A stretch of DNA of 64,000 bases, taken from contig NZ_CP059733.1 in the NCBI RefSeq assembly GCF_000948985.2, forward strand, positions 3,844,001 through 3,908,000. The letters run 5' to 3'. Shown here in pieces: positions 3,121 to 30,594 of the stretch. The notes below the pieces were generated by a model. It saw only the letters and a list, made by a program, of their open reading frames with translations, was not told where the DNA came from and searched no databases. This DNA is from Thalassomonas viridans. GTDB taxonomy: Bacteria; Pseudomonadota; Gammaproteobacteria; Enterobacterales; Alteromonadaceae. Made by a program: the position numbers and the translations under genes. How positions within the stretch are numbered: the stretch's first letter is position 1; each line of letters starts with the position of its first letter.

Positions 3121-3164
3121 AAGATATTTAAAACTTGACAGTTGTGTCAAGTTTTAAATATCTT
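3121..3164. promoter_or_regulatory. Operator A: 20-bp-arm palindrome and promoter before deoB
   Basis: Arms 3121-3140 and 3145-3164 are perfect inverted complements separated by GTTG. The core TTGACAGTTGTGTCAA (3135-3150) is one of seven sites in the window of the form TTGAC-M-N4-K-GTCAA. The left half-site TTGACA also reads as a -35 box, with TATCTT (3159-3164) 18 nt downstream as a plausible -10 toward deoB. The sequence around it closely resembles the site before udk, including the shared ATATCTTA. The rest of 2744-3305 is AT-rich and holds no convincing gene. Confidence 0.75.
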
Positions 3165-3305
3165 ATGTGATTAATGTTTATCGAAAGCCGATAAAAGTGT
3201 TATCATAATGCCCTGTAGTACCTGAATTAGCAGGCTTTGGCGGTTTTTTACCCCACCTGCCGGTTTATCGCGCTATTTGGCGTGTTTTTATCTTTGGAGA
3301 ATTGA

Positions 3306-4514
3306 GTGGCTCGTGCAATTATTTTAGTTGTGGATGGTTTTGGTCTTGGCAGTGCCCCTGACGCAGAGCAGTTTGGTGATGTATCGGCAAATACTTTTGC
3401 CAATCTCGCCGATGCGTATTTTCAAGAAAAGGGTGTACCGTTAAATATTCCCAACCTTGCCGCCCTTGGTTTAGTTCAGGCATGTCAGCAGGCTTCCGGC
3501 CGCAGCTTCCCTTATAAAGGTGAAGCGCCGAGCAAAGGCGCCTACGGTTATGCCGCCGAAATCAGCACAGGTAAAGATACCCCCAGCGGTCACTGGGAAA
3601 TGGCCGGTGTGCCGGTATTGTTTGACTGGGGCTATTTCCACGACAAAGAAAACAGCTTTCCGCCGGCCTTATTGGAAAAGATTTATCAAAAAACCGGCAT
3701 TCCCGCGATCTTGGGTAACTGCCACGCCTCAGGCACCAACATTATCGCCGAGCTAGGGGAAGAGCATATCCGTACCGGCACCCCGATCTGCTACACCTCG
3801 GCAGACAGCGTTTTTCAGATTGCTGCCCATGAAGAACATTTCGGCCTGGAAAAACTTTATCAGTATTGTGAATATGTGCGTGAAGTGCTCGACGACATGA
3901 ATATCGGCCGGGTGATCGCCCGCCCCTTTGTCGGCACCAACAGCAACGATTTTGAACGTACCGGCAACCGCCGCGATTATTCGGTCTTGCCGCCGGCGCC
4001 GACGGTATTGGATAAGATGGCCGCCAAAGGCGACGTTATCAGTGTCGGTAAGATTGCCGACATCTTTGCCCACCAGGGCATCACGGCAAAAACCAAAGCC
4101 ACCGGCCTGCCGGCCCTGATTGACGCCACCATAGCGCATATCGACAGCGCGAAAGATAACAGCATCATCTTCACCAACCTGGTGAATTTCGATCAGGATT
4201 ACGGCCACAGGCGCGATCCGGTCGGCTACGGCGAAGCGCTGGAATATCTGGATGTCAGATTGGAAGATATCTACCAGCAGCTGCGCGACGACGATATCCT
4301 GTTTTTAACCTCAGATCACGGCTGCGACCCTACCTGGCATGGCAGCGACCATACCCGGGAATATGTGCCGGTACTGGCGTATTCCAAAGGTATGGGCTCA
4401 ATACCGCTGGGAGAGCGCAATACCTTTGCCGATTTAGGCCAGACCATTGCCGAAATGTTTGATTTGGAAAAAATGGCATACGGCGACTCGTTCTTCGCAA
4501 AAATTCGTCAGTAG
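3306..4514 (+). CDS. deoB: Phosphopentomutase
   Basis: DeoB (402 aa) interconverts ribose- or deoxyribose-1-phosphate and the 5-phosphate, linking nucleoside phosphorolysis to DeoC and the pentose phosphate pathway. It belongs to the alkaline phosphatase superfamily. The metal-binding Asp10 lies in [12 protein letters not shown], the phosphorylated threonine is Thr92 in DTPSGHWEM, and the C-terminal metal ligands lie in [15 protein letters not shown]. The start is GTG at 3306, with GGAG about 8 nt upstream. It stands alone rather than inside a deoCABD operon, behind operator A and before a strong terminator. Length is normal for the family. Confidence 0.96.
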
Positions 4515-4526
4515 TGACAAGAATTT

Positions 4527-4563
4527 AAAAGGTGAAACCATTTAATGGCTTCACCTTTTTTTT
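4527..4563 (+). terminator. Rho-independent terminator after deoB
   Basis: The stem AAGGTGAA/TTCACCTT is extended by CCAT/ATGG and followed by eight or more T residues, 12 nt after the deoB stop. It isolates deoB from the TonB receptor gene downstream. Confidence 0.85.
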
Positions 4564-4724: not shown

Positions 4725-6962
4725 ATGCAAACCATAAAGAAGTCACCGGTCTTTCTGTGTGTCCACGCAGCCTTGTTCGCCGGTAGTTTAGGTACATCGG
4801 CCATCGCCAGTGCTGAAGAAGCACAAGACATGAAGTTAGAGGTCATCGAAGTTACCGCGCGTAAGCGGGTGGAAAACGTGCAGGAAGTCCCTGTTTCCGT
4901 TTCTGCCATGCAGGGTGAAATGCTCGATGTCTACAGCTCGGCGGGTATGGATATACGCTTTATGAGCGCGAAAATTCCAAGCCTTTCTATTGAGTCATCT
5001 TTTGGCCGTACCTTCCCGCGCTTTTATGTGCGCGGTTTAGGTAATACCGACTTCGATCTGAACGGTTCTCAGCCTGTTTCCCTGGTCGTTGATGAAGTAG
5101 TACAGGAAAACCCTATCTTAAAAGGTTTCCCAGTTTTTGACGTAGAACGTGTTGAAGTACTGCGTGGCCCGCAAGGTACCCTGTTCGGCCGTAATACCCC
5201 GGCCGGCCTGGTCAAGTTCGACTCGAAAAAGCCTACCCAGGAATTTGACGGCTTCGCCTCTTATTCTTACGGCACCCACAATACCCAGGACTTTAAAGGT
5301 GCCGTCGGTTTTGGTTTAACCGACAAGCTTTCTACCCGCGTATCCCTGCTAAAGCAAAAGCGTGACGATTATATCGATAACGAAGCGCCGGGTTATGAAC
5401 AAGACAACGTGCTTGGCGGCTATGACGAAACGGCCGGCCGTGTCCAGTTCCTGTGGGAAGACGGCGACTTTACCGCCCTGTTGAACTACCACTTCCGCGA
5501 TTTGGAAGCCAAGCCGATCGTGTTTAATGCCAACCTGATTGAAAGCGGCACCAACAACATCCGCAAAGGTTTCAACGATGAAAAGGTTTTTCAGGACGCA
5601 GCCGGAAATGCCAAACAGGACGTGGAAACCAATGGCGGCAGCTTGAAGCTTGAATACACTTCGGATGAATACGTCTATACCTCCATCACAGGTTACGAGA
5701 GTGCGGAAATCTTCTCCCGCGCCGATGTTGACGGCGGTAACCCGGCCGGCCCTGGTTTTATTCCTTTCTCATCAGAAAGTGCCGATGCTATCCCGGATCA
5801 TGAGCAAATCACCCAGGAATTTCGCGTAACCAGCCTTTATGATGGCCCGATGAACTTCCAGGCAGGTCTTTTCTACTACTTTGAAGATCTCACCATTGAA
5901 AGCCTGAGCTACGACACCACAAATAACAGTGCCATCAACGGTTACGCCGTTCAGGAGCAGGAAACCCGTGCCTGGGCATTATTCGGCTCTATGGACTACC
6001 AGGTATCTGATGATCTGAAAATCACCACAGGTTTACGCTATTCAAAAGACGACAAAGAATTTGTTGCCGAGCGTTTTACCAACCCGACGCCGTGGAACGG
6101 CTCGCCTGACTACATCAAAGGTGAAGCCAACCCGGACGACTCCCATGTCAGCTGGGATATCAGCGCCAACTATAAAGTCAGCGACGACATAAACTGGTTC
6201 GGCCGTATCGCCAACAGCTTCCGCGCACCTAGTATCCAGGGCCGTATCCTGTTCGGTGATGAAGTGACGGTTGCCGATTCGGAAACCATTACCTCATTTG
6301 AAACCGGTTTAAAAACCGATGTACTGGACGGCCGTGGCCGCATTAACGGTTCGGTTTTCTACTACACCATGGATGATCAGCAGCTGACGGCTGTTGGTGG
6401 CGACGCCAACTTCAACCGCTTGGTCAATGCCGATGAAACCACAGGTTACGGTTTTGAAATCGATGCCGAATTTGTTGTTACCGAAAACTTACTGGTAACA
6501 GGTAACGTCAGTTACAACAATACCGAAATTAACGATAATGACTTATCAATCGCGGTATGTGCCCAGTGTACGGTAACCGACCCGCTTAACAGCGACGGAC
6601 GCGCCATCATCGACGGCAACAGCCTGCCGCACGCCCCTGAGTGGATCGCTAACTTTACCGCCCGCTACGCCCGTGAACTGGGTGACGGTGAGATCTTCAT
6701 CTACACCGACTGGTCATATCGCAGCGAAATCGACTTCTTCTTATACAACTCGGTTGAATTTGAAGGCAAGTCGCTGTTAGAAGGTGGCCTGCGTACCGGT
6801 TATGCCTGGTCCGGCGCCGATAACGATTACGAAGTTGCCCTGTTCGCACGTAATATCACGGACGAGCAAGTGGTGATCGGTGGTGTCGACTTCAATAACA
6901 ATACAGGTATTGTTAACGAAGGCCGCTTTGTCGGTGCTGAGTTCAAGGTTAATTTCTTTTAA
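4725..6962 (+). CDS. TonB-dependent outer membrane receptor
   Basis: A 745-aa TonB-dependent receptor. A signal peptide is seen at residues 1-30 (ending ASA), a TonB-box-like VIEVTA at about 40-45, and a plug domain at about 55-170 with FYVRGLGNTDFD, DVERVEVLRGPQGTLFGRN and AGLVKF. A beta-barrel follows, ending in a terminal Phe (KVNFF) as expected for BamA-dependent insertion. GGGAGA gives the ribosome site 7 nt before ATG. It sits between deoB and aroG; nucleoside uptake is a reasonable guess from position only. Unlike the three Oar-like receptors, it lacks a carboxypeptidase-regulatory N-terminal domain and lacks the TTGAC-M-N4-K-GTCAA operator. An imperfect dyad (4634-4642/4655-4663) flanks a TTGACA -35-like box upstream. 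Confidence 0.9.
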   Translation: MQTIKKSPVFLCVHAALFAGSLGTSAIASAEEAQDMKLEVIEVTARKRVENVQEVPVSVSAMQGEMLDVYSSAGMDIRFMSAKIPSLSIESSFGRTFPRFYVRGLGNTDFDLNGSQPVSLVVDEVVQENPILKGFPVFDVERVEVLRGPQGTLFGRNTPAGLVKFDSKKPTQEFDGFASYSYGTHNTQDFKGAVGFGLTDKLSTRVSLLKQKRDDYIDNEAPGYEQDNVLGGYDETAGRVQFLWEDGDFTALLNYHFRDLEAKPIVFNANLIESGTNNIRKGFNDEKVFQDAAGNAKQDVETNGGSLKLEYTSDEYVYTSITGYESAEIFSRADVDGGNPAGPGFIPFSSESADAIPDHEQITQEFRVTSLYDGPMNFQAGLFYYFEDLTIESLSYDTTNNSAINGYAVQEQETRAWALFGSMDYQVSDDLKITTGLRYSKDDKEFVAERFTNPTPWNGSPDYIKGEANPDDSHVSWDISANYKVSDDINWFGRIANSFRAPSIQGRILFGDEVTVADSETITSFETGLKTDVLDGRGRINGSVFYYTMDDQQLTAVGGDANFNRLVNADETTGYGFEIDAEFVVTENLLVTGNVSYNNTEINDNDLSIAVCAQCTVTDPLNSDGRAIIDGNSLPHAPEWIANFTARYARELGDGEIFIYTDWSYRSEIDFFLYNSVEFEGKSLLEGGLRTGYAWSGADNDYEVALFARNITDEQVVIGGVDFNNNTGIVNEGRFVGAEFKVNFF

Positions 6963-9728: not shown

Positions 9729-12700
9729 TTAAAAGCGGTAACGTATGCCCAGCTGTGCTTTCCACACCGAAGGGATTTTCGCCAGGGTTGGCGCCGGCCA
9801 GGTAAAGTTATCGTAAACATACTGACCCGCATCGTTGATGGATACATCCACTACCGGGGCATTAAACGGCTGCACATAAGACTCCGCCCTGCCCCAATCA
9901 TCGTTAAGCAGATTGCCCAGGTTTTCGATATCCAGCGTCAGCTCCAGCTTATGCTCACCGCTGATCTGGATCTCCTGCATCACATGCATGTCAAGGCGCT
10001 GTATCCAGCGGCTGGAGCAGGCATGCCTTCTGGAAATTTTCCCCGGACTCAGGCAATCCTTACTGTCGAGGAAGGCAAAAAAGGCATCGGTATCGAAACC
10101 GTCGGCATAGGTCACCAGAGGGTCATCCATACCGTCCGGGACATATAACAGCTGTGAATTATAACCGTCCCAGGTGGCGAAACCGGCAAAACCGCCAAAG
10201 GTGCCGCTGGATCTCATGGTATGGCTATAATGGCGTCCTTCCCGCGCGGTAAAGGATAAGGCGACTGTGGTCAGGTTACTGCCGAAGATTTCATCGCTCC
10301 AGCTGAAATTAATGGTCATCCTGTGTTGGACTTCATACTCGGAGTTATATTCGTTTTCCGCCTGGAAGTCATAGTTGGCGGGCATGGAATAACCTTCGAA
10401 CGCCACAAAGGCATTACCCGGGTTGATTTCGGTAATATCCTGGTAGGTATAGCCGATACCAAAGTTATAATTGCCGTGATCTGTATAAAAGTTCTTCTCG
10501 GCGGCAAAGGTCCAGACCTGGCCTTCCCCTTCATCGGTATTGGTTAAGCTCAAATCGAAAGGCGCCGGAGAATCGTATATGGGTCTGCCATCGGGCGCCA
10601 GGCGGATATTTCCGTCATCATCCAGCGCCGGCTGCATATTAAGCTCGGTATAGATGGCGGCATCTTTAACCTTACTGAAAATCACATCGGCAGTCAGCAG
10701 CCAGTCTTCGCCGAGAAAACCGAGATCCTGGCGCCGTTCGACTCCTATGTTCATTTTCCAGGTGCTGGGAATATCAAAGTCCGGGGCGATACTATTGGTA
10801 TCGCCGTTACCGCCGCCGCTGGCAAGGCCTTCAAGCACTTCTGCCGGCAACGTACGGCCGTCAAAACAACCGCCAAAACAACCGGCAAAGGTTTTTCTGA
10901 CGCCATCGTTACCATAGGAGTTGGACAGCCAGACATTAGGCGCCCCGCCGCCAAAGAGGCCGATACCGCCGCGGATCACGGTATCATCATCATAGGTCCA
11001 GTTAACCCCGAACCTGGGCTCAAACAAATCCAGGCCGTCATAATTATTCTGGTTGCTATAGCCGTGACGGTCGACAAAATTCTGGTTCAGCACCGGCTTA
11101 TCGTCATTGTCGTATTCGGTGTAACGGAAACCATAAGTCAGGGTAATGTCGTCTGTGATCGACCATTCGTCCTGCAGATAATAAGTGGTTGTGCTGTATT
11201 CAAACTTATCTACCGCATCGCTGGGATCGCCGGTCACCGCGTTTTGAAAAACATGAAAACCGTTGTTATTTTCAAAATCATCGATGCTGGCAAACTCCGT
11301 CATGCCCAAGGAGCCGAAGACAAAGGTATTTTCTATTTCCAGGATCTCATGCTCAACCCCAAAGGTGATCAAATGTTCATCGGTCAGGTAATAATCCCCT
11401 TTAAATTTAAACATATCCCTGTCGTTGGTTAAGGCATTGGCATGACGGAACTGATCCGGCCCGATATAAAGCGAAGCGCCATTGCCGGTATGGATAAGGA
11501 ACTGGGCAAAGTTTGCACCGAGCAACGGCACCTGCTGGGTTTCCACTTCTTTACGGGCAAACTTAAATTCGCTGGAGAAGTCTTCACTCCAGTCGGAAAA
11601 CACCTGCAGGCTGTATGCCTTTAAGGTTTCATTCATGTTATAGCGGTTAGACTCGGCAGTCGCCCAGGTGGCATTGGGAAAAGTTTCCGCCCAGTAATCC
11701 CTTACGGTATTGCCTTCATTGTCCTGATAGGTGAAAGACGCCCTATGGTCGTCTGAAACATACCAGTCAAATTTCACCAGCAGCTTCTCATCTTCTTCAT
11801 CGGAAGTGGTGTCATATCCGCCGATATCATAATTCCAGACATCCTGGGCAATTTGCGAAATACGGTCGAAATCCGCCTGGGTAACACCAATTTTTTCATT
11901 GGCTTCAATCACACCGTTTTCATTGTCCAGGGTAAACTGATAGGGTTTAGTGGCATCAAACTTTTCATAGGAAACAAAGAAAAATAGGGTATCTTCAACA
12001 ACCGGCCCCCCCAGGGTGAAACCATAGGTATCTTCTTCAAAATCACCGATACTCAGGTCTTCCCCTTTATTGTCTTCCCCTGCCATGCCCTCGTCGGAGC
12101 GGAAGAAAAAAGCCGAACCGTGAAATTCGTTGCTGCCGGACTTAGTGACGATATTGACATTGCCCCCCTGGAAGTCCCCGTAGGTAACCTCGAACGGCGC
12201 AACATTCACCGCCAGTTGCTCGATGGCGTCAAGAGAGATAGGGGTTCTGCGTCCCGGGTAACCGTTTTTATTCAGGCCAAAATCATCATTTTGTTTCACG
12301 CCATCCACGGTCAAACTGTTGCCGCGGACACTGCCGCCGGCAATGGAAAGCGCCGGGCCGCCATCGGCCGTGGTATCCACCACCATACGCGAATCGCTTT
12401 TAAGCACAGATTTCAGATCCCGGCTAATGGCCGCGGTGTTGGCAATTTCCTGCTCGGAAAACTCTTCACTGGGCCCTTTTTTATAGGTGCCCGCCATCGC
12501 CATCTGTCCCGTGACCTGGATACGTTCAAACTCCTGCGCCTGGACTTGTTGTTCGTTTAGTACCACTTTAGAGGTCTGGCCCAGCTGTAGTATCAGATCG
12601 TCGACTTCTTCAAACGTTTTTGAACTGCCGCCGGTCACTTTTACCGTATAAGGTCCGCCTATGGTTAACCCCCTGGCCTGAAAGACTCCCCCTTCCGTGG

Positions 12701-12973: not shown

Positions 12974-12989
12974 ATGACCAATTGGTCAA
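12974..12989. promoter_or_regulatory. Operator G before Oar-like receptor 1
   Basis: ATGACCAATTGGTCAA contains the 14-bp perfect palindrome TGACCAATTGGTCA and fits TTGAC-M-N4-K-GTCAA except for its first base. It lies 93 bp upstream of the receptor start. The rest of 12882-13260 is AT-rich promoter space shared with the divergent udk operon and contains no further gene. Confidence 0.7.
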
Positions 12990-13197: not shown

Positions 13198-13213
13198 TTG
13201 ACACAAGTGTCAG
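13198..13213. promoter_or_regulatory. Operator B and promoter before udk-nupC-deoC
   Basis: TTGACACAAGTGTCAG matches the site family with one base off at the end. As at deoB, the left half TTGACA can be a -35 box and TATCTT (13222-13227) sits 18 nt downstream. The flanks TTTAAAAC and TTTTGAATATCTTA resemble those of operator A. It overlaps a spurious upstream TTG start for udk, which supports the internal ATG at 13261. Confidence 0.75.
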
Positions 13214-13260
13214 CTTTTGAATATCTTACTGCTGCGCCAAGAAAGCGGATAGCTAACTTA

Positions 13261-19372: not shown

Positions 19373-19388
19373 TTGACCATATGGTCAA
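19373..19388. promoter_or_regulatory. Operator F, perfect RutR-like palindrome before cdd-deoA
   Basis: TTGACCATATGGTCAA is a perfect 16-bp palindrome identical in form to the published RutR box (TTGACCANNTGGTCAA). On the minus strand a TATACT -10-like box lies just upstream of it, so a bound repressor would cover the transcription start. It sits 18 bp before the cdd ATG. Confidence 0.8.
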
Positions 19389-19553: not shown

Positions 19554-22500
19554 TTAGAAGTCGTATTTAACCCCTAAACGAACTTCCCACAACGAAGAAT
19601 CACGGTTACGGGATTGCTTCGGCGGATCAAGGAACTCGTTATAGGTGTAGGTTCCGTCGTCATTGATGCTGGCGGTTACCGCACCTTGCAGGTAAGAACC
19701 TTGTTTCAGCACGCCCCAATCGTCATTTAACAGGTTACCGACATTTTCAATGACAAAGAAAGCACTACCTTTATGACCTTCCATAAAGCCAGGGAATTCC
19801 TGCTCGACGCGGACGTCAAACTTCACCCACCAGTCACTGCTTAACTCGTTACGGTCCATGATTTCACCGCGTTTCAATCCTTCTGAATCAATGAAGTCAT
19901 TGAATGCGGCCACATCGAAGTTTTCCCCATAGTTCACCAGAGGATCGTTTTCTAACGGTACGTACAATAACTGGCGATCTAAGTCATTGTAGTCGAAGTC
20001 AAAACCGCCGCCGTTATTAGAGCCTGCGAACGACCAGGTGTAAGGACGCCCTTCATTCGCCTGGCCAAACAGGCTCAAAGTGGTTTCATAACCGGCAAAG
20101 AACTCGTGAACGTAACTAACATTCAATGTAAATCTGTGCGGAATTTCATAGTTAGAAGTTGCCTCTTCCAGACTGTTCGGGCTTGCCGTAGCAACATCAT
20201 GATAGTTGGTAAAGGCAACGGAACTGGTCATAGGATGCACGTCGTTAGACTCGGTATAAGCATATGAAGCAGTAAAGCTCAGGCCATTGTCGTAGCTTTT
20301 GCTGACAGCCAGTGACAATACCGTGGTATCGCCGCCGTCACTGACATTGGTTAACAGGTAGTCATCCCGGCCTGTGGTGATCGGACGGCCGTCCGGTGCC
20401 GGCTCATCTTTGTAGGTTTTACCTATATTTTGAATGATAGCCGAGTCCTGCTTATCGGTATAAAGCAAGTCCGCCATGATCACGTATTCGTCTTCTGTGG
20501 TGTAGGTGGCGCCTAAGGCGTATTTCCACTCAGAAGGAATTTCAAAATCAGGATCGGTCACGTTCACAGAACTGTCTGCTGAGCCGTTAGTCACAGCGTC
20601 AATCAAATCAACCGGAATATCGTAACCTGGACGGCCGGTACCATCGTATTCGATAGCATCAGGGCCAGTGATCTGGATTGGCGGACGGCTGCCGGTATCA
20701 TCGCGGTCATTACGTAATCGTGCCTGGATATTACGGACACCATCATTTGAATAACTGTTGGAAATCCACACGTTCGGGTTACCGCCGGAATATAAACCAA
20801 AGCCACCGCGTACTTCCAACTGGTCGCTTGCCGCCCAGTTAAAGCCGAATCTTGGCTGAACTAAATCAACGCCGTCCAGGTTCTGTGAGTTCGAATAGCC
20901 GTATCTTTCAACAAAGTTAGGGTTTTCCGTCGGCTTATCGCTACTCTTATACCAGTCATAGCGTACACCCACCATAATGGTCATATCATACTCGTACAAC
21001 TCAAATTTATCCTGGAAGTACAAGGTGTTTAACGCATATTCAAATTCACCGGCAGCATCGTCCGGGTTATGGGACTGGGCGTTACCGTATTCGATCTGCG
21101 ACGCTAAACCGTTCTCAAAATCTTCAACCGAGCTGAAGCGCGTTTCGGTCTGGCTGTGCTGGATAAACAGGTTGAAAACATCTAACTCTTCACGCTCATA
21201 ACCAAAGTACAACTCGTGATCGTCAAGATAATAGGTACCGGCCAATTTCAATGAAGTGGTATCGTATTTCAGCTTATTCGACTGACGGGAATCATCCGGC
21301 CCGATATAAACACGAATATCATCGGCCTGGACACGGAACTCACTGAAACCGCTGTCGGCATCCCTGGACACCTGGCGGTTGTCCAACTCCAGGTAACCTA
21401 ATCTGAACTCGGTTGAAAAATTATCCGTCCAGGTCGAGTAGATAGAAGTCACATAAGAAGTCAGCTCGGCGCCGCGCTCATACACGTGGTTGGATAAGGC
21501 GATTTCTACCGGGTCGGCATCAGATTGTCCCCATTCATAACCGTCGTTGTAGTTATAAACAAATACCGCCCTGTGGTCATCATTGATGTTCCAGTCAAGC
21601 TTCATCAGGATTTTTTCATCTTCAACCGGTAGGCTCGGCTCCATAGTACCGGGGTCGTAATCATAAACATCTTTGGAGATTTGAATGATACGGTCTACCT
21701 CTGCCTGGCTGATACGCTGCGGGCTGTCATTAAACGGAATATAATCAAGAATTTGTGTGCCGTCTAATTTCTCATAGCTACCAAAGAAGAACAACTTGTC
21801 TTCAATTAAAGGCAGGCCAAGGTTGAAACCGTAACGTTTCTCGGTGTAATTACCTACGTCTTGCTTGTCGCCTTCAAGGCTGTCGCCTTTTAAAGAATCG
21901 CTGGTGAAGTCGTAAAAGAAGCCGCCGTGTACTTCATTGGTACCGGACTTGGTAACGGCATTGATATTACAGGAAGTGAAACCACCATACTGGACATCAA
22001 ACGGAGCCAGTTCAACCGTTACCTGGTCGATAGAGTCATAGGAAAAAGGAATACGAACCGTAGGATAACCATTGCTGTTTAAGCCGAAGTTATCGTTCAT
22101 CCGGGTACCGTCAACCGTCAAGCTGTTAAACTTAGGGTTGCCGCCGGCACAGTTGATGGCATCATTATTGGTTTGGTCGATATAAATACGCGGGTCGACA
22201 CGGATCACATCTTTAATGTCCCGGTTTACCGTAGGCGCATTAACCAGGTCATCCAGGTTAAAGTTACTCGCCGGGCTGGTGCTGCCGGCATTCTTATCAA
22301 GAATACGGCCGGTTACCGCAATCACTTCCATATTCTGCTGGGCTTCCAGGCTACGGTCTAACTCATAGGTTTTACCCAATTGCAGGAAAATGTCCTTAAC
22401 TTCTTGATCTTCATAGGCATCGGAATCAATGGTTATCCTGTACGGACCACCGACACGTAAACCTTTGGCAGAGAAAACCCCGGCCTCATTAACGGTAACC

Positions 22501-22682
22501 TGTTTGGTAGTGCCCGAAGGTACGTGAGTAATAGACACGACAGTACCGGCAGCAGCGTTACCCTGCGGACCGGTAATATGACCTTTGATTGCGGAAGAAG
22601 TACTGTTAGCCTGGACACCGGCGCTAAGCCCCAGTCCCAATACTAATGCAGCGGCAACACGAGAGAGACGATGTGTTTTCAT
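19554..22682 (-). CDS. Oar-like TonB-dependent receptor 2
   Basis: A 1042-aa outer membrane receptor, paralogue of the receptors at 9.7 and 23.2 kb. It has signal peptide MKTHRLSRVAAALVLGLGLS ending VQA, then a carboxypeptidase-regulatory domain (about 30-110, IKGHITGPQGNAAAGTVVSI). The plug (about 130-235) has NSLTVDGTRMNDNFGLNSNG and INAVTKSGTNEVHGGFFYDF, and the barrel ends EVRLGVKYDF. AAAGGAAAA precedes ATG, and the 5' leader and signal peptide closely resemble those of receptor 3, suggesting tandem duplication. Upstream are operator C and a degenerate second site. A role in nucleoside or nucleic-acid uptake is inferred from the shared operator, not from sequence. Confidence 0.9.
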   Translation of the reverse strand: MKTHRLSRVAAALVLGLGLSAGVQANSTSSAIKGHITGPQGNAAAGTVVSITHVPSGTTKQVTVNEAGVFSAKGLRVGGPYRITIDSDAYEDQEVKDIFLQLGKTYELDRSLEAQQNMEVIAVTGRILDKNAGSTSPASNFNLDDLVNAPTVNRDIKDVIRVDPRIYIDQTNNDAINCAGGNPKFNSLTVDGTRMNDNFGLNSNGYPTVRIPFSYDSIDQVTVELAPFDVQYGGFTSCNINAVTKSGTNEVHGGFFYDFTSDSLKGDSLEGDKQDVGNYTEKRYGFNLGLPLIEDKLFFFGSYEKLDGTQILDYIPFNDSPQRISQAEVDRIIQISKDVYDYDPGTMEPSLPVEDEKILMKLDWNINDDHRAVFVYNYNDGYEWGQSDADPVEIALSNHVYERGAELTSYVTSIYSTWTDNFSTEFRLGYLELDNRQVSRDADSGFSEFRVQADDIRVYIGPDDSRQSNKLKYDTTSLKLAGTYYLDDHELYFGYEREELDVFNLFIQHSQTETRFSSVEDFENGLASQIEYGNAQSHNPDDAAGEFEYALNTLYFQDKFELYEYDMTIMVGVRYDWYKSSDKPTENPNFVERYGYSNSQNLDGVDLVQPRFGFNWAASDQLEVRGGFGLYSGGNPNVWISNSYSNDGVRNIQARLRNDRDDTGSRPPIQITGPDAIEYDGTGRPGYDIPVDLIDAVTNGSADSSVNVTDPDFEIPSEWKYALGATYTTEDEYVIMADLLYTDKQDSAIIQNIGKTYKDEPAPDGRPITTGRDDYLLTNVSDGGDTTVLSLAVSKSYDNGLSFTASYAYTESNDVHPMTSSVAFTNYHDVATASPNSLEEATSNYEIPHRFTLNVSYVHEFFAGYETTLSLFGQANEGRPYTWSFAGSNNGGGFDFDYNDLDRQLLYVPLENDPLVNYGENFDVAAFNDFIDSEGLKRGEIMDRNELSSDWWVKFDVRVEQEFPGFMEGHKGSAFFVIENVGNLLNDDWGVLKQGSYLQGAVTASINDDGTYTYNEFLDPPKQSRNRDSSLWEVRLGVKYDF

Positions 22683-22978: not shown

Positions 22979-23004
22979 AATTGTTGACACAAGTGTCAAC
23001 AATT
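22979..23004. promoter_or_regulatory. Operator C before Oar-like receptor 2
   Basis: The 12-bp arms AATTGTTGACAC and GTGTCAACAATT flank AA; the 16-bp core TTGACACAAGTGTCAA spans 22984-22999. On the minus strand the half-site TTGACA has GATAAC 17 nt downstream, a plausible promoter toward the receptor. A weaker match, CTGACCATGCGTTCAA, follows at 23014-23029. The remainder of the 22683-23195 gap is AT-rich, with no gene seen. Confidence 0.75.
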
Positions 23005-23115
23005 GTCTAAAAACTGACCATGCGTTCAAGTTATTTTATCGCAAAGAAATAAAGGCAAACAAGAGATATTGCTTTCAATTTATTGTTTCTCTGGCAAATA
23101 ACGTAAACTGCAGGC

Positions 23116-23195: not shown

Positions 23196-26100
23196 TTAGA
23201 ACTTGTAGCTAATACCGATTTTAGCTTGCCATGCCGAAGCACCGGTATCGATAGTGTCGTAGTTGCGGGTATCCGCACCGTTGAAACGTGCATCGATAAT
23301 GTAACGGCCCTGGTCGTCTAAACCGCCAAAGTCATAAATGCTCTGGTTAGGGTAACGTAATTTCTTCTCTACGCCCCAGTCGTCGTTCAGCAGGTTGGCA
23401 AAGTTATCGATCATCAGGTAAATCTGACCGCTGTGACCTTCAGCAAAACCAGGGATTTCCTGCTTGATGCTGATGTCTAAGCTGGTTACCCAAGGCTGGG
23501 TACCTGTGTTACGATCCAGGATTTCACCACGCTCGCTGATACCAGCTTTATCCAACAATACCTCTAACTCGTTCCAGGAAATGCCGGACTCTTCCCAGTT
23601 AACAAACGGGTCGTCTGCACCTGTCGGAATGTAAGGCAGGTAAGCCGATTGCGAGTAGAAGGCTTCGTTGTCACCTAAGTCACGGTCACGGTACATGCCC
23701 ATAGTGTGGCTGTACGGACGGCCGGAACGACGCTCTAGGTACATGTTAAAGCGGGTAGCATAACCTTCAAAGAACTCAGTGGTATAGCCTAAGGTTAACT
23801 TGAAGCTATGCTCGATTTCATAAGAGCTGCGCTCTGCTGAGTTTTCGTTACGGTTCTTGATGATGTTATGCTTGTAGTTACCGGCAGCGGCAGAAGCTGA
23901 ACCAACATGGTTGTTGGTAATATCCTGGTGAGCATAGCTCATGGTCATGCTTACACCGTTATCCCAGGCTTTGGCTAATGACGTAGTGAAGATAACCGAA
24001 CGGCCGTCATCATCGGCATTGGTCATTTCAATATCGTAGTTCTCAGCCAGGTCGCCTTCATAGATGCTTTCGGTGATCACACGCTCACCATCGGCAGCAA
24101 CGCCAACAGGAGTGATAGACTTGTTCACCCAGATAGCTTCGTTTTCCAGCTTGTGGTACATCAACTCGTTGGTCCACTTGAAGCCTTCACCTAAGTAAGG
24201 CAGGTCGAAGGTATAGTCGAAACCAACCTGGGCACGCCAGCTTGAAGGCAGCTTGAAGTTAGGATCGGTATAAGTTGTGCTACCGGCACCCTGTACTAAA
24301 GAGTTCTTGATTTCATCAGGAACCTTGGTAATGTCTGCCAGGTTTTCTGCATAGTAAGCGTCAATCACGCTGTCCGGGGCAGAAACTAAGGTAATACCGT
24401 CCATCTGGAACGGGTTGTTATACCAAACATTTGGTACACCGCCCTGGAAACGGCCAACACCGGCACGTACCGTTAAGTCATCGCTGGCGTACCAGGTCAG
24501 GTTAAAGCGCGGCAGGATGATGTCTAAACCGTCAAGATTTTCAGTGTTATCGTAACCATAGGTGTTAACAAAGTTTTCATTAACAGTTGGCTTATCGCTG
24601 GACGCCAGGCGCTCGTAACGCACACCTGCGCTTACTTCGATGTCGTCGGTCAGGTAGAAAGTATCTTCAACATAAAGTGAGTACTGCTTTCTTACTGCTT
24701 CATAAGCGGTATCGTTCGGATCATTGGTGTAGGCATTGTCGTAAGAGAAGTCGTACTCGCCGCGGAAGTTACCTACTACACGGTTTTCAAAATCTTCGAA
24801 GTTGTCGAATTCCCATGAACCTAAAGAGTTACGGGCAAACAGGTTGTACAGGCGTAAACGCTCGTACTGGGCGCCAAACTCAATTTCATGGTCGCCTAAC
24901 AGGTAAGTGGCATCAAGTGACAATACGAAAGTTGACGTTTCGCTGGCGTTAGCATGACGCGTTTCGTCACGGCCAAACTCATAAGCAGGTCCGCGGAAGA
25001 ATTCTTCAACCTTAACGCTACCAACATCAGAGTTGGTCTTGCTGTCTGAAGTTACGTCTTTGTAGCTGATGCCGATTTCTGTGGTGAAATCGTCAGACCA
25101 GTCAGAGTAGATCTTAGTCGCGAAGTTATTGAACTTAGTCACGTAGTTGTAACGTGATGACGCGAACTTAACCGTGCTGCCGCCGGTACCGAAGTTTGAT
25201 TCAACCTGGTCGTCCTGCCACTGGTAAGTGAAGTCTAAACGGTGAGCATCGTTGATGTTCCAGCTTAGTTTAGCCAATACGTTTTCATTGGTGTCTTTAG
25301 GATCGCCACCTAAAGAGTCCTGCAGACCGTAGGTAGAGTCTAAAATGCGTAAGAATTCGTTAAAGTTTTCTTCAGAAACGTCATACTCGTGAGTAGCGCC
25401 GCTGCCTTCGAAACCATAGTCCATATCCAGCTCGCTGGTGAAATCGCTATAGTTAACGAAGAAGAATAACTTGTCTTCGATGATAGGACCGCCGACGTTG
25501 AAGCCAAAACGCTTCTCGGTCTGGATAGGCTCAACCTTGCTTACTTCATAGGTTCTGTGACCGTTTTCATCTAATACGGCACGCCCGTCTTCGTCAAATA
25601 CCTGGGAGATAGACTCAACGTCACCCGCCATGCTCGGCGTAGAAGTTTCATAGAAGCTTGAGAATTTAAATTCATTGGTACCAGACTTAGTAACCGCATT
25701 GATGGTACCGCCGCCGAACTTACCTTTTTTGGCAGTAAACGGAGAGGCATCAACAGAAATTTGTTCGATTGCATCTAAGGAAACCGGAGGTTGCGCCGTA
25801 GGGTAACCACCAAACTGAAGACCGAAATCATCGTTTTGACCGATACCGTCAACCGTCAGGCTGTTAGTACGCGGGTTACCGCCGGCAATACTCATTTCAC
25901 CGCTACCGTTGATAGTGGCTAACGGGTTCATACGGGCGATATCTTTAATATCTTTGTCAAAGCTTGGTGTATTTTCGATGGCGTCGGCGCCAAATACACT
26001 GTTAGATCCACCAACGTCTTGCGTAAAACGGTGACCGGTTACGGCAATACGCTCAACTTCCACTTGTGGTTCCAGTTGAGTGTTCAAACGGTAGGTATCA

Positions 26101-26408
26101 CCCAGGGACAGGAAAATGTTTTCTAATGCTGTGTCCTGATGCTGGTCCGAGTCGATATAAATCGTGTACGGACCACCAACCCTTAAGCCTTTAGCAATAA
26201 AAACACCACTGTCATTAGTAACGAATTCACTTACTGTGCCTGATGGTTGGTGTAATACAGTAATTTTTACATTTGCTGCATCATTACCTTGAGGGCCAAC
26301 AATTTTACCCCGCATCGACGACGAGGTCTCTGCCGCCATAGCAGATGTTGAAAGCCCGAGGGCGATAACTAACGCGCCAGTAATACGCGAAAGACGATAT
26401 GGTTTCAT
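23196..26408 (-). CDS. Oar-like TonB-dependent receptor 3
   Basis: A 1070-aa outer membrane receptor of the same family as receptors 1 and 2. Evidence: signal peptide MKPYRLSRITGALVIALGLS ending AMA, a carboxypeptidase-regulatory domain with MRGKIVGPQGNDAANVKITV, a plug with NSLTVDGIGQNDDFGLQFGG and GGGTINAVTKSGTNEFKF, and a barrel ending KIGISYKF. AAGGAAAA precedes ATG. Codon use is noticeably plainer (more AAG, GGT, CTG-poor stretches) than in receptor 1, as expected for a highly expressed member; this is an impression, not a calculation. Operator D lies 363 bp upstream. Confidence 0.9.
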   Translation of the reverse strand: MKPYRLSRITGALVIALGLSTSAMAAETSSSMRGKIVGPQGNDAANVKITVLHQPSGTVSEFVTNDSGVFIAKGLRVGGPYTIYIDSDQHQDTALENIFLSLGDTYRLNTQLEPQVEVERIAVTGHRFTQDVGGSNSVFGADAIENTPSFDKDIKDIARMNPLATINGSGEMSIAGGNPRTNSLTVDGIGQNDDFGLQFGGYPTAQPPVSLDAIEQISVDASPFTAKKGKFGGGTINAVTKSGTNEFKFSSFYETSTPSMAGDVESISQVFDEDGRAVLDENGHRTYEVSKVEPIQTEKRFGFNVGGPIIEDKLFFFVNYSDFTSELDMDYGFEGSGATHEYDVSEENFNEFLRILDSTYGLQDSLGGDPKDTNENVLAKLSWNINDAHRLDFTYQWQDDQVESNFGTGGSTVKFASSRYNYVTKFNNFATKIYSDWSDDFTTEIGISYKDVTSDSKTNSDVGSVKVEEFFRGPAYEFGRDETRHANASETSTFVLSLDATYLLGDHEIEFGAQYERLRLYNLFARNSLGSWEFDNFEDFENRVVGNFRGEYDFSYDNAYTNDPNDTAYEAVRKQYSLYVEDTFYLTDDIEVSAGVRYERLASSDKPTVNENFVNTYGYDNTENLDGLDIILPRFNLTWYASDDLTVRAGVGRFQGGVPNVWYNNPFQMDGITLVSAPDSVIDAYYAENLADITKVPDEIKNSLVQGAGSTTYTDPNFKLPSSWRAQVGFDYTFDLPYLGEGFKWTNELMYHKLENEAIWVNKSITPVGVAADGERVITESIYEGDLAENYDIEMTNADDDGRSVIFTTSLAKAWDNGVSMTMSYAHQDITNNHVGSASAAAGNYKHNIIKNRNENSAERSSYEIEHSFKLTLGYTTEFFEGYATRFNMYLERRSGRPYSHTMGMYRDRDLGDNEAFYSQSAYLPYIPTGADDPFVNWEESGISWNELEVLLDKAGISERGEILDRNTGTQPWVTSLDISIKQEIPGFAEGHSGQIYLMIDNFANLLNDDWGVEKKLRYPNQSIYDFGGLDDQGRYIIDARFNGADTRNYDTIDTGASAWQAKIGISYKF

Positions 26409-26770: not shown

Positions 26771-26786
26771 CTGACCATATGGTCAA
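26771..26786. promoter_or_regulatory. Operator D upstream of Oar-like receptor 3
   Basis: CTGACCATATGGTCAA is identical to operator F except for its first base. It lies in the divergent gap, 363 bp from the receptor 3 start and 373 bp from the tetR start; it most likely serves receptor 3, whose leader would then be long. Confidence 0.7.
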
Positions 26787-27044
26787 CTTGACTATATTTA
26801 TCAACGAAAACTCCCGTAGTTTGCACCATATACCCTTAATCATTTACCAACCAAGTGAATAGTCTAAAACAAAAACTTCCCTTCCCCCGCGCCAATACCG
26901 GAGAAATTCACTCTTTTACCACGATTGAAATTTATTTCGCTAAAAACCCTGGCTTTTATTCTGTTATAATTGGGCGGAAACCAGTAAATCATGCAAGTTT
27001 ATCGACTAAATATGCATAAATAACGGCAAAACAGGAAAGCCTCC

Positions 27045-27072
27045 TTGACCTGCTGGTCAATAAAAATAGAAT
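27045..27072 (+). promoter_or_regulatory. Operator E and promoter of the RutR-like regulator gene
   Basis: TTGACCTGCTGGTCAA (27045-27060) is a perfect-arm palindrome of the same family. TTGACC can serve as the -35 box and TAGAAT (27067-27072) as the -10 with a 16-nt spacer, so repressor binding would block its own promoter. Confidence 0.75.
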
Positions 27073-27158
27073 AGCCGGTAGTGACAGTGAAACATTTCGC
27101 TGGTAAAACCACAGCCGCATAATAAAAACAAAAATTTACAACATGAGTAATCAAGCTG

Positions 27159-27794
27159 ATGAATGAAACTAAAAAGCCTAATAAACAAGGAAGAATTAGA
27201 GCTGAAAGTGAACTGAAAATAATTACCGCCGCCCAGGAAGAATTTATCTTACAAGGCTACCGCGGCGCCACGGTGCAGTCGATCGCCGACCGCTCCGGCC
27301 TGCCCAAAGCCAATATCCTTTATTACTTTAAAAATAAAGAAAACATCTACCACGCCGTACTGGAAAGAACCCTCAACATGTGGGATCAGGCCATTGGCGA
27401 TATCGACCCGGCACACGGCCCAAAAGTTGCGATAGAAAAATTTATTGCGGCAAAAGTCAGAGTCTCGTTTGAACATCCCGGTGCTTCCAAGATCTACGCC
27501 ATGGAAATCATCCAGGGTGCACAGCACTTAAAAGAGTTTACCCGCACCTACCAGCGCCAGTGGGTCAGGGAAAAAGCCAAGTTGTTCCAGCAATGGATCG
27601 ATAACGGCGAAATGAAAAACGTGGATCCGGTCAACCTGATTTTCCTGATCTGGTCATCCACCCAACACTATGCCGATTTTGAAACCCAGATCCTGCAGAT
27701 CATGAACCGCGCCGATTATGAAGAAGACGATGTCACCCATGTTACCCGGTTTCTTACCGACATCATCCTGCGCGGCTGTGGCTTAATCGACTAA
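27159..27794 (+). CDS. TetR/AcrR family regulator, RutR-like
   Basis: A 211-aa TetR-family repressor. The N-terminal helix-turn-helix (about 15-65) contains AAQEEFILQGYRGATVQSIA and GLPKANILYYFKNKENIYHA. The ligand domain resembles E. coli RutR (the uracil/thymine-sensing regulator) in ordered motifs: KVRVSFEHPGASKIYAMEI, GAQHLKE and DPVNLIFLIWSSTQHYADF. The palindromes around it match the RutR box, and one lies in its own promoter, so it is the obvious candidate regulator of the nucleoside genes, with a pyrimidine base as likely effector. It precedes the EEP gene by 15 bp. Resemblance was judged from memory, without alignment. Confidence 0.88.
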   Translation: MNETKKPNKQGRIRAESELKIITAAQEEFILQGYRGATVQSIADRSGLPKANILYYFKNKENIYHAVLERTLNMWDQAIGDIDPAHGPKVAIEKFIAAKVRVSFEHPGASKIYAMEIIQGAQHLKEFTRTYQRQWVREKAKLFQQWIDNGEMKNVDPVNLIFLIWSSTQHYADFETQILQIMNRADYEEDDVTHVTRFLTDIILRGCGLID

Positions 27795-27809
27795 ATTTTA
27801 GGAATTTAA

Positions 27810-29090
27810 ATGAAACGCTACTTGATGTTACCTTTAATGTTGTTAACCGCCTGCGAGGGAACCAGCATAAACCAACCAGCCCCGCAAAGCGAACAAGCAG
27901 CCTTGAGCAGACAAACAGATTTAAGCAAGCAAACCGCCATGAGCACTAAACTGCGCATTGCCACCTTTAATGTCAGCATGGAAGCGTTGAATTACCTGCC
28001 TGTTTCTCATGGAGAAGATAAAGGACAGGCCCCCCAGGTCAAAGGCGATGAGCTGGCAAAATCCCTGGCGGCCAACCACCAGCAAATCCGCAATATTGCC
28101 GAAATTATCCAGCGTATTAACCCGGATATTATTCTGCTTAATGAATTCGACCGCCAGGATGACTCGCACCAGGCCTTAAGAACATTCCTGCAAGACTATT
28201 TAGGCAAAAGCCAGCAGGGACAGGCACCGCAACATTTCCCTTACTTTTTCCAGGGACCGGTCAATACCGGCGTCCCCGCGCCTTTTGACATCAACAACAA
28301 CGGCACCGAAGGCGAATCCCCTGCCGATACCTATGGCTTTGGCTTTTTCCCCGGCCACTTTGCCATGGCGCTCTTGTCCAAGTATCCGATCTCACATAAA
28401 GAAATCAGAACCTTCCAGCATTTTAAATGGCAGGATATGCCGGGAGCACTGCAACCTGTAGACCCGGAAACCAACAAGCCCTGGTATAACGCGGATGCCT
28501 GGCAACAAATGCGCTTATCTTCCAAGTCCCACTGGGACGTACCGGTTAGCGTCAACGGCCAGACGGTACATATACTGGCAAGCCACCCGACCCCGCCGGT
28601 TTTTGACGGCCCGGAAGATCGCAACGGCAAACGTAACCATGACGAAATCCGCTTCTGGCTTGACTATATCACCCCGGGCAAAGGCGATTATATCTACGAC
28701 GACAATCAAGGAAAAGGCGGATACCAGAGCCGGGATCCCTTCGTGATCATGGGCGACCAGAATGCCTCCAGTGTCGAAGGCGACGCCATTAACACCGGCA
28801 TACACGCCCTGCTCGACAGCAAGCAAATACAAGATCCCCAGCCCGCCAGCCCGGGAGCCGAAGAATACACCCAGGGCAACCCCCACGGTAAATACCATAC
28901 CGCCTACTGGGGTATGCGCGCCGATTATGTCCTGCCTTCGTCTTTTGGTTGGAAAATCACTGACAGCGGCGTATTCTGGCCTAAAGCCGGTGACGACACC
29001 TACAGGCTGATTAAAGACCGCCAGGCTTCATCGGATCACCGCCTGGTATGGGTAGATCTGGAACTGCCGGCAGCCGACAGCGCCAATTAA
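27810..29090 (+). CDS. Endonuclease/exonuclease/phosphatase family lipoprotein
   Basis: A 426-aa exported protein of the EEP fold (DNase I, sphingomyelinase and phosphodiesterase relatives). The N-terminus MKRYLMLPLMLLTAC carries a lipobox (LTAC), so it should be anchored to a membrane facing the periplasm or outside. EEP motifs appear in order: LRIATFNVSMEAL (metal Asn), INPDIILLNEFDR (metal Glu), SHPTPPVFDG, IMGDQNASSVEGD (catalytic Asp-x-Asn) and SSDHRLVWVDL (catalytic Asp-His). It is 15 bp after the RutR-like gene and probably in its operon, so a nuclease or nucleotide phosphodiesterase role is likely; sphingomyelinase-type activity cannot be excluded. Confidence 0.87.
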   Translation: MKRYLMLPLMLLTACEGTSINQPAPQSEQAALSRQTDLSKQTAMSTKLRIATFNVSMEALNYLPVSHGEDKGQAPQVKGDELAKSLAANHQQIRNIAEIIQRINPDIILLNEFDRQDDSHQALRTFLQDYLGKSQQGQAPQHFPYFFQGPVNTGVPAPFDINNNGTEGESPADTYGFGFFPGHFAMALLSKYPISHKEIRTFQHFKWQDMPGALQPVDPETNKPWYNADAWQQMRLSSKSHWDVPVSVNGQTVHILASHPTPPVFDGPEDRNGKRNHDEIRFWLDYITPGKGDYIYDDNQGKGGYQSRDPFVIMGDQNASSVEGDAINTGIHALLDSKQIQDPQPASPGAEEYTQGNPHGKYHTAYWGMRADYVLPSSFGWKITDSGVFWPKAGDDTYRLIKDRQASSDHRLVWVDLELPAADSAN

Positions 29091-29111
29091 ACAATAACCG
29101 ACATAAACACA

Positions 29112-29193
29112 GGGCCCGCGAATGTAAAAATAAAGGGCCCGTTATTATAAAAATAAACCTAAGCACAATAACAAGCCCGGCAATAACCGGGCT
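29112..29193. other. Two stem-loops between the EEP and alkaline phosphatase genes
   Basis: GGGCCC occurs at 29112-29117 and 29135-29140 and can self-pair; AGCCCGG (29174-29180) and CCGGGCT (29187-29193) form a second stem with loop CAATAA. Neither has a good T-tract. They may attenuate or process a transcript between the two genes. Confidence 0.45.
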
Positions 29194-29223
29194 GGTATTG
29201 GCTTGACAACCTCAGGAAAGTAT

Positions 29224-30594
29224 ATGAAACGCGTATTATCTACACTTTTTCTCTGTATGAGTTCGATCACTTATGCCAAGACAAGCGCCCCGGAAAATAT
29301 CATCATGATCGTCGGCGACGGCATGGGACCGGCCTACGCCAGCGCCTATCGTTATTTTCATGATAATCCCAACACCCCGGAAATCGAACAAACGGTTTTT
29401 GACCGCCACCTGGTAGGCATGAGCAGCACCTACCCGGCGCAGGTTTCCGGTGTTGTTACCGACTCGGCCGCAGGCGCCACCGCCCTGGCCACGGGCATTA
29501 AGAGCTATAACGGCGCCATCGGGGTTGACGTAGACAAAAAGCCGCTGGAAAGCGTACTGGTATGGGCGAAAAAACAGGGCAAGAAAACCGGTATCGTCGT
29601 GACTTCACGCATCAACCACGCCACCCCGGCTTCTTACCTGAGCCATAATGAAAGCCGCCGCAACTATGATGAAATTGCCGACAGTTATGTCGACGACACG
29701 CTCAACGGCCAGTTCAAGGCAGATCTGATGCTGGGCGGCGGTTGGAAACACTTTATCCGTGAAGACCGCAACCTGGTCAACGAATTCAAACAGGCCGGTT
29801 TTCATTACCTCGACAGTTACGCCGGCTTAAGCAAGTTGCCGAAAAACCAGCCGGTACTGGGACTTTTTGCCGACGCCGGCCTGCCCTGGGCACTGGATGA
29901 CAGCAATAAGCACAGATTGTCCGCCATGACCAAAGCCGCCACCGCACATCTGGAAAACAAAAACGGTTACTTTATGCTGATCGAAGCCAGCCAGGTAGAC
30001 TGGGGCGGACACAGCAATGACATTGCCGCCGCCATGGCAGAAATGGACGACCTGGCAAAAACCCTGGAGTTTTTAGAAACCTATGTCGAGAAAAATCCCA
30101 ATACCCTAGTGGTATTAACGGCGGATCACAGCACAGGCGGTTTCACCATAGGCGCCCATGGCGAATACGCCTGGCGTCCTGAAGTACTGCGTACCATGAC
30201 CATGTCGCCGGAAACCATAGCCGAAAAGCTGTCTGAAAAGGCCATCAACCAGGCATACGCCAAAAGCCTGTTTAAATTTGCCCTGACGGAAGTTGAACTG
30301 GCACAGCTGCAACTGGATAAGGCCGAAGCAGCAGCTGAAGTGAAAGCCTATGAAGCAGCCAAAGCCGCCGGTAAAGCGAAAAAGATGGCCGAGCCTGAGC
30401 AGGTAGCTTCGGTACTGGAAACCAGCGTTAAACAGTTAATCGACAAGCGCACCAATACCGGCTGGACCTCTGGCGGCCATACCGGGGTCGATGTGCCGGT
30501 ATTTGCCTTTGGCCCGCAAAGCGAACGCTTTAACGGTTTGCAGGACAATACCGATATCGCCAAAAAAATCTTCACCCTGCTGGGGAAAAACTAA
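29224..30594 (+). CDS. phoA: Alkaline phosphatase (PhoA family), exported
   Basis: A 456-aa secreted alkaline phosphatase that can release phosphate from nucleotides and other monoesters. Signal peptide MKRVLSTLFLCMSSITYA. Metal site Asp32 lies in MIVGDGMGPAYA. The phosphorylated serine is Ser81 in VVTDSAAGATALATG. Metal ligands also appear in SQVDWGGHSNDI, VLTADHSTGGFTIG and SGGHTGVDVPVFAFG. I chose ATG at 29224, preceded by AGGAAAG, over TTG at 29203. It lies 133 bp after the EEP gene on the same strand. An alanine/lysine-rich insert (about 355-395) is unusual. The symbol reflects the family, not proven orthology to E. coli PhoA. Confidence 0.92.
   Translation: MKRVLSTLFLCMSSITYAKTSAPENIIMIVGDGMGPAYASAYRYFHDNPNTPEIEQTVFDRHLVGMSSTYPAQVSGVVTDSAAGATALATGIKSYNGAIGVDVDKKPLESVLVWAKKQGKKTGIVVTSRINHATPASYLSHNESRRNYDEIADSYVDDTLNGQFKADLMLGGGWKHFIREDRNLVNEFKQAGFHYLDSYAGLSKLPKNQPVLGLFADAGLPWALDDSNKHRLSAMTKAATAHLENKNGYFMLIEASQVDWGGHSNDIAAAMAEMDDLAKTLEFLETYVEKNPNTLVVLTADHSTGGFTIGAHGEYAWRPEVLRTMTMSPETIAEKLSEKAINQAYAKSLFKFALTEVELAQLQLDKAEAAAEVKAYEAAKAAGKAKKMAEPEQVASVLETSVKQLIDKRTNTGWTSGGHTGVDVPVFAFGPQSERFNGLQDNTDIAKKIFTLLGKN

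Follow-up and report, generated by a model that had tools for sequence, protein, structure and literature searches.

The 64-kb window analysed here, a stretch of the Thalassomonas viridans genome (contig NZ_CP059733.1, positions 3,844,001 to 3,908,000), carries genes for nucleoside use, three Oar-like outer-membrane receptor genes, and a gene for a TetR-family regulator, here called RutRL (Table 1). A preliminary description of this DNA reported seven 16-bp palindromes in the gaps before these genes and read them as a single regulon of one RutR-like regulator. All seven palindromes are present at the starts listed in Table 1, each with at most one end base off TTGACMNNNNKGTCAA. The 14-bp core TGACMNNNNKGTCA (TGACM-N4-KGTCA) has seven matches in the window, exactly these sites, whereas 100 dinucleotide shuffles averaged 0.11 matches and never gave more than 2. 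A chance origin of the seven core sites is excluded. Genome-wide, the exact 16-mer occurs at six places in 7.95 Mb, four of them inside the window. The loose motif shows no genome-wide enrichment: at ≤1 mismatch it occurs at 98 places in the whole genome versus 145 for a reversed control pattern. Because the loose scan was uninformative, strict patterns were used for later work. The sites are real and local, and are meaningful only as a strict motif.

The seven sites fall into two operator classes, overlooked in the preliminary description, which differ at two positions per half-site. Class C, TTGACCAnnTGGTCAA (TTGACC..GGTCAA), comprises the sites at 12974, 19373, 26771 and 27045 and is similar to the operator of Escherichia coli RutR, whose consensus we take, as did the preliminary description, to be this 16-bp palindrome. 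Class A, TTGACACnnGTGTCAA (TTGACA..TGTCAA), comprises the sites at 3135, 13198 and 22984. The comparison with related genomes that had been proposed showed that all seven sites recur with their class in three further genomes of the genus (4/4 in total). In these four genomes, 83/84 core positions are invariant (12/12 at six sites and 11/12 at 26771), versus 0.61-0.86 of columns in the same gaps, sites included. At site 12974, both centre bases vary among the four genomes whereas the half-sites do not.

A TetR_C_3 search of the genome revealed two genes, rutRL and a paralog, RutR2, at C1:3833480-3833902 (gene C1:3833474-3834097), about 10 kb left of the window. It is probable that these two RutR-type paralogs each have their own operators and together control a regulon for the use of nucleic acids, with RutRL acting at class C and RutR2 at class A. 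Three of the seven sites are of the class associated with RutR2, whose gene lies outside the window, and the data do not support one regulator governing all seven sites as a single regulon. The neighbours of rutR2 encode adenosine deaminase, malate synthase G, guanine deaminase, ureidoglycolate lyase, allantoicase and xanthine dehydrogenase. This purine-catabolism cluster (add, rutR2, glcB, guaD, the ureidoglycolate lyase and allantoicase genes, and xdh; C1:3824001-3844000, locus L113) abuts the nucleoside cluster, and together they make one long nucleic-acid catabolic region.

RutRL and RutR2 are about 41% identical. PF00440 and PF08362 were both above cut-off for RutRL, and RutR2 scored 170 bits on PF08362. 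Family models bore out the gene names of the preliminary description, except that the protein encoded at 27159-27794 is not RutR by NCBIfam TIGR03613: RutRL reached 153 bits on TIGR03613 and 139 on PRK15008, and RutR2 185 and 150, below the cut-offs of 368 and 230. A tree was built from 81 of 83 distinct proteins, two of <185 residues being omitted. In the tree, E. coli RutR and four rutA-adjacent RutRs form one group (5 rows, support 100/100), separate from the 30 RutRL rows and the 20 RutR2 rows. The 20 RutR2-type rows form one clade (100/97), and all have R and H at the positions of E. coli K52 and L56 (R/H proteins). The other 61 rows have K at the K52 position, and L at the L56 position in all but two. 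The RutRL orthologues of the genus form a separate clade; the RutRL of the window is represented there not by its own row but by genus copies 97-98% identical to it (the RutRL of locus L016, from Thalassomonas sp. RHCl1, is 97% identical). In an alignment, at the positions of E. coli W77, Y97, W167, Q171 and Q179, RutR2 has W, Y, W, Q, Q and RutRL has W, F, W, Q, Q, so that the uracil-contact residues W77, W167, Q171 and Q179 are kept in both. RutA was not found above cut-off in this genome, in agreement with the earlier statement that no rut genes are present in the window, the other rut genes not having been searched for; it was above cut-off in 6/98 genomes of the family. A second R/H paralog (loci L246 and L247) adjoins a GntR/FCD regulator gene in genomes G066 and G039, with no class A or C site upstream of it at ≤2 mismatches.

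The similarity of the two proteins and their conserved pockets would also suit overlapping control, in which both paralogs bind both classes with different affinities and every gene integrates both signals. Furthermore, the Oar1/udk and Oar2 gaps contain both classes. However, every one of the seven sites has the same class in 4/4 genomes, which shared specificity would not require, and we regard overlapping control as rather unlikely.

The pairing of class A with RutR2 was examined in 98 genomes of the family; searches detected RutR-family homologues in 58 of them and an xdhA gene in 43. Among the 17 genomes with both an R/H protein and xdhA, a class A site lies upstream of xdhA in 16 (14 at ≤2 mismatches, 2 at 3) and a class C site in none. 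The present genome was counted through site 3135 at -392, just beyond the 400-bp scan, which itself gave one 3-mismatch site. The seventeenth genome, G066, has no class A site before xdhA but has one before the adjoining deoD (locus L135). In the 26 genomes with xdhA and no R/H protein, class C precedes xdhA in 23 at ≤3 mismatches (20 at ≤2) and class A in none; three have neither class, and one of these, G022, has no RutR-family gene. With ancestry ignored, this partition of 16 A/0 C versus 0 A/23 C has a Fisher p of 3e-11. Core counts were compared as a further check. Class A cores number 26 versus 1 control in the 18 genomes with an R/H protein. Exact class C cores number 91 versus 13 reversed controls in the 58 genomes with a family gene, and 20 versus 18 in the 40 without. 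The RutR2-only genomes G003 and G049 have 2 and 1 class A cores and no class C core. In the 15 RutRL-only genomes, from which G044 (RutRL plus two other family members) was excluded, class C cores total 14 (2 controls) and occur in 7 of the genomes; class A cores total 1 (2 controls).

These counts bear on the model of the preliminary description, in which RutRL alone binds all seven sites, with relaxed specificity at half-site positions 6-7, and RutR2 works elsewhere. The TTGAC/GTCAA ends common to all sites and their location in one gene cluster with rutRL would agree with this model, as would the Oar2 promoter, which has a weak class C-like site 30 bp from its class A site. However, just one class A core is found in the 15 RutRL-only genomes, and class A accompanies RutR2 at xdhA in G003 and G049, which lack RutRL. 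We therefore consider it unlikely that RutRL acts alone.

Further evidence came from 80 loci with RutRL relatives (of 85 found), mostly from Colwelliaceae. Among the loci listed, the gene order deoB, udk-nupC-deoC-tdk(-upp), cdd-deoA, Oar, rutRL-nuclease-phoA recurs. Five-base dyads were enumerated with no motif supplied and compared with 20 base shuffles. The top dyad was TGACC-N4-GGTCA both in the cdd-Oar gap (40/53 loci, one of the 40 from this genus) and in the deoB-udk gap (17/17 loci, all outside the genus), where the largest counts of any dyad in the shuffles were 3 and 4, respectively. Class A was found in 0/17 of the deoB-udk gaps, which again argues against RutRL alone binding all seven sites. 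At ≤3 mismatches, the cdd gap has a site in 50/53 loci. The upstream-region count for cdd is lower (22/50) because the window's cdd open reading frame (ORF) has an N-terminal overhang, and the gap-based counts are preferred. No site at ≤2 mismatches was found in 295 upstream regions of the inner genes (nupC, deoC, tdk, upp, deoA, nuclease and phoA), with 0/36 loci for tdk and 0/18 for upp. The strongest dyad in the Oar-rutRL gap, GATGA-N4-TCATC (30/61), was rejected, as it represents the Oar coding start, which falls within the extended region. Locus L078 (Endozoicomonas sp. G2_1) has a Colwelliaceae-type nucleoside cluster with a 69% identical RutRL, and its genus label may be wrong or its cluster may have been acquired.

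The position of rutRL and the recurring cdd and deoB-udk sites in Colwelliaceae support the earlier claim that a RutR relative is tied to nucleoside genes. The claimed receptor link fared less well: the sites before the receptors are kept in the genus, but outside it only 8/60 Oar upstream regions have a site at ≤2 mismatches (7 class C, 1 class A). Likewise, a site precedes rutRL in just 10/63 loci outside the genus at ≤2 mismatches, weaker sites often lying near -100. Because the Oar and rutRL sites are mostly absent outside the genus, the receptor link is mainly genus-specific. The predicted core of the RutRL regulon is cdd-deoA and deoB/udk, with receptor control seen for this genus alone.

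Besides these low counts, several observations weigh against the assignment of the two classes to two paralogs. The R/H helix is confined to a single clade, so the xdhA partition amounts to one event observed repeatedly; it is strong as consistency and weak as independent replication. The exact class C core is absent from 8/15 RutRL-only genomes. RutR2's own upstream 450 bp has no site at ≤2 mismatches in 16 close orthologues. RutRL has F at the position of E. coli Y97, where RutR2 keeps Y. In favour of the assignment, the two best -35-like hexamers in 12800-28000 (10/12 matches each) fall at operators 13198 and 27045, but promoter-like matches in total are at chance level (17 versus 20.9). 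A protein with K and H at the two helix positions (locus L270) has a class C-like site. According to the available part of one study (PMC10891134), K52 of E. coli RutR is thought by homology to contact guanine, and the K52R variant binds normal boxes in vitro. On that report, an explanation of the operator change by K52R alone was rejected. Because K52R alone binds normally and L270 keeps a class C-like site, a switch in specificity needs both R/H changes or others.

Class A cores also occur where no R/H protein does, with 12 versus 4 controls in the 40 genomes with other family members only and 27 versus 6 in the 40 genomes without any family member. Nineteen of the latter 27 have a CCGG centre, and CCGG-centred class A cores probably serve another regulator. 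The sequence TGACACCGGTGTCA, present at 3-4 copies per genome in G017, G018, G043, G060, G061 and G092, all without R/H RutR2, is probably another regulator's operator. One alternative is that the class A sites of the window are operators of an unrelated regulator, such as a LacI-family protein, as genomes without RutR-family genes also have TGACACnnGTGTCA, mostly TGACACCGGTGTCA, and some pgi genes are preceded by TTGACAGCGCTGTCAT. However, these look-alikes are CG-centred, whereas the class A centres of this genome are AA, TT or, at deoB, TT-type, and class A before xdhA goes with RutR2. We consider an unrelated regulator very improbable. A class V aminotransferase gene and a sub-threshold Tsx-like match flank a class A pair in G003, and in G079 a class A site precedes an aminotransferase gene similar to that of G003; these aminotransferase-linked sites could fit purine breakdown.

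The regulon of the two paralogs seems to reach beyond the window, as judged from sites before pgi, tal, a permease gene, an endonuclease I gene and a chemoreceptor gene (Table 1). The tal and permease sites were chosen by eye from the 1-mismatch list for their fit to class A and are weaker than exact sites; four out-of-window 1-mismatch places (L116, L117, L121, L122) were inspected in detail, and genes were annotated for two. All four genus genomes have class A sites before pgi and tal, and 3/4 have one before the permease gene by the exact pattern; the endonuclease site is weak in the three other genus genomes (3 mismatches, -242 to -247). Glucose-6-phosphate isomerase (Pgi) and transaldolase assist in the use of ribose phosphate, so both fit a nucleoside diet as targets. 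Seven further TGACC-N4-GGTCA places (L096, L097, L098/L119, L099, L105, L106 and L108) were set against ORFs only and may be linked to the regulon. Two places at C2:1085414 and C2:1085457 (L120) were set aside; with a TetR gene on one side and an ABC transporter on the other, they probably serve that TetR regulator itself. An ISAs1-type transposase gene (L116:1987-3123) lies just upstream of the tal site.

Upstream regions of 20 of the 37 pgi matches, from 14 genomes with R/H proteins, were compared. Class C at 1 mismatch was found in two (G007 and G086), before a 74%-identical pgi, and a class A-like site at 2 mismatches in one; four have only 3-mismatch sites, each set including a CG-centred look-alike, and 13 have none. 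The sequence TTGACAGCGCTGTCAT, near class A with a CG centre, lies ~64-71 bp before pgi in L346, L348 (one variant), L349 and L353, and also occurs at C1:2271853 in this genome. Before pgi genes it is presumably a LacI-type site, and it was set aside. Genome G003 has seven glucose-6-phosphate isomerase matches; among the other 13 genomes searched, ten have two to four.

Table 1. Genes and candidate operators in the window and at other sites of the genome.
Feature	Position	Strand	Remarks
xdhA, xanthine dehydrogenase small subunit	1283..2743	-	divergent from deoB; TIGR02963 627 bits
class A candidate operator	3135..3150		TTGACAGTTGTGTCAA; in the divergent xdhA-deoB gap, 156 bp before deoB; identical in 4/4 genus genomes
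deoB, phosphopentomutase	3306..4514	+	TIGR01696 475 bits
TonB-dependent receptor	4725..6962	+	downstream of deoB; adjoins deoB also in L315, L316; PF00593, PF07715
deoD	8897-9601		family model
Oar-like outer-membrane receptor 1	9729..12881	-	ORF to 12989, likely ATG 12881; PF25183, PF13620, PF00593
class C candidate operator	12974..12989		ATGACCAATTGGTCAA; ~92 bp before likely Oar1 ATG (12881); core 12/12 invariant in 4 genomes
class A candidate operator	13198..13213		TTGACACAAGTGTCAG; 45 bp before likely udk ATG (13258); overlaps predicted -35 hexamer
udk, uridine kinase	13258..13923	+	TIGR00235 258 bits
nupC, nucleoside transporter	13940..15187	+	TIGR00804 468 bits
deoC, deoxyribose-phosphate aldolase	15197..15967	+	TIGR00126 255 bits
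tdk, thymidine kinase	16254..16832	+	PF00265; no operator upstream
upp, uracil phosphoribosyltransferase	16909..17535	+	PF14681; no operator upstream
deoA, thymidine phosphorylase	17615..18934	-	TIGR02643 610 bits
cdd, cytidine deaminase	18936..19355	-	ORF extends to 19388; TIGR01354 149 bits
class C candidate operator	19373..19388		TTGACCATATGGTCAA; just before cdd-deoA (likely cdd ATG 19355)
Oar-like outer-membrane receptor 2	19554..22682	-	PF25183, PF13620
class A candidate operator	22984..22999		TTGACACAAGTGTCAA; 302 bp before Oar2
weak class C-like site	23014..23029		CTGACCATGCGTTCAA; beside Oar2 class A site; 2 mismatches
Oar-like outer-membrane receptor 3	23196..26408	-	PF25183, PF13620, PF07715
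class C candidate operator	26771..26786		CTGACCATATGGTCAA; 363 bp before Oar3; core 11/12 invariant in 4 genomes
class C candidate operator	27045..27060		TTGACCTGCTGGTCAA; 99 bp before rutRL; overlaps predicted -35 hexamer
RutRL, TetR-family regulator, YcdC/RutR C-terminal domain	27159..27794	+	PF08362 E 5.5e-44
endonuclease/exonuclease/phosphatase-fold (Exo_endo_phos) enzyme	27810..29090	+	lipoprotein-like N-terminus; PF03372 E 1.2e-34
phoA, alkaline phosphatase	29203..30594	+	likely ATG 29224; PF00245 E 3.2e-101
class A site	C1:510190		in gap before pgi
class A site	C1:1227433		in gap before transaldolase (tal); one mismatch
class A site	C1:2476392		in gap before Xan_ur_permease (xanthine/uracil-type); one mismatch
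class A site	C2:223778		in gap before unassigned 262-aa protein with signal-like N-terminus
class C site	C1:3521244		before 472-aa Endonuclease_1 protein (secreted endonuclease I)
class C site	C1:6398279		before chemoreceptor

All three Oar-like receptors have OMP_b-brl_4 and CarboxypepD_reg domains. The Exo_endo_phos enzyme gene begins 15 bp after rutRL, with the alkaline phosphatase gene next, and is probably in one operon with rutRL; rutRL and the Exo_endo_phos gene are neighbours in 67 loci.

The members of the regulon in our preferred reading, the two paralogs with separated operators, are nucleases, the phosphatase, the receptors, nupC, udk, cdd, the deo genes, pgi and tal. RutRL would bind class C and control cdd-deoA, Oar1, Oar3 and its own operon with the nuclease and phosphatase genes, and elsewhere in the genome probably the secreted endonuclease I and the chemoreceptor. 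RutR2 would bind class A and control xdhA/deoB, udk-nupC-deoC, Oar2, pgi, tal and the xanthine/uracil-type permease. Each repressor may keep RNA polymerase from acting at its sites and be released by a small molecule; a block of the polymerase is the natural reading for TetR-family repression. By analogy with E. coli RutR, the inducer of RutRL might be a pyrimidine base, which is plausible because cdd and deoA would feed the release of uracil and thymine. We infer the binding, repression and ligands of both paralogs from the sites, their classes and conservation, and the co-occurrence of paralogs with them.

The same kind of catabolic genes, the deo genes, is controlled in E. coli by CytR and DeoR, which belong to unrelated regulator families. 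Like E. coli RutR, RutRL and RutR2 are TetR-family proteins with a YcdC-type C-terminal domain and keep W77, W167, Q171 and Q179. Unlike E. coli RutR, to which identity is 32%, RutRL has F for Y97, no RutA was found above cut-off in the genome, the predicted targets are nucleoside catabolism and nucleases, and there are two paralogs with separate operators. The available part of the E. coli study reports that, in RutR, uracil is bound by W77, W167 and Q171, through a water on Y97, and by Q179 from the partner chain, that uracil impairs its DNA binding, and that its site is about 16 bp (PMC10891134). RutR regulons have been predicted in 68 genomes of 13 groups, with about 10.9 genes each and taxon-specific motif changes (PMC5343134, RegPrecise, as far as the source is available). 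The available part of this account of Proteobacterial RutR regulons names no nucleoside or purine-catabolism RutR targets and no paralog split, and overlap is possible (PMC5343134). We found no published description of the two-paralog nucleoside arrangement, parts of which may be predicted in RegPrecise.

In this genus, class A sites precede deoB and udk, and a class C site precedes Oar1, whereas in the relatives class C lies between deoB and udk. Together with the pgi comparison, this suggests that targets moved between the paralogs, the orthology of the pgi copies being assumed. We tentatively propose, at somewhat short of an even chance, a hand-over in the Thalassomonas lineage, in which a duplicated repressor first gained a new recognition helix (K52R with L56H), and the promoters of deoB, of udk-nupC-deoC and perhaps of pgi then passed, through two base changes in each half-site, from RutRL on the pyrimidine side to RutR2 on the purine side. 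If this is true, one regulon for nucleic-acid use now reads two base signals. The arrangement would provide a coherent regulatory logic by which marine Colwelliaceae could feed on extracellular DNA and RNA, running from the nuclease and phosphatase via the outer-membrane receptors to enzymes of the pentose-phosphate pathway. It may also offer a compact natural case of duplicated repressors separating their DNA words, with target genes then changing masters.

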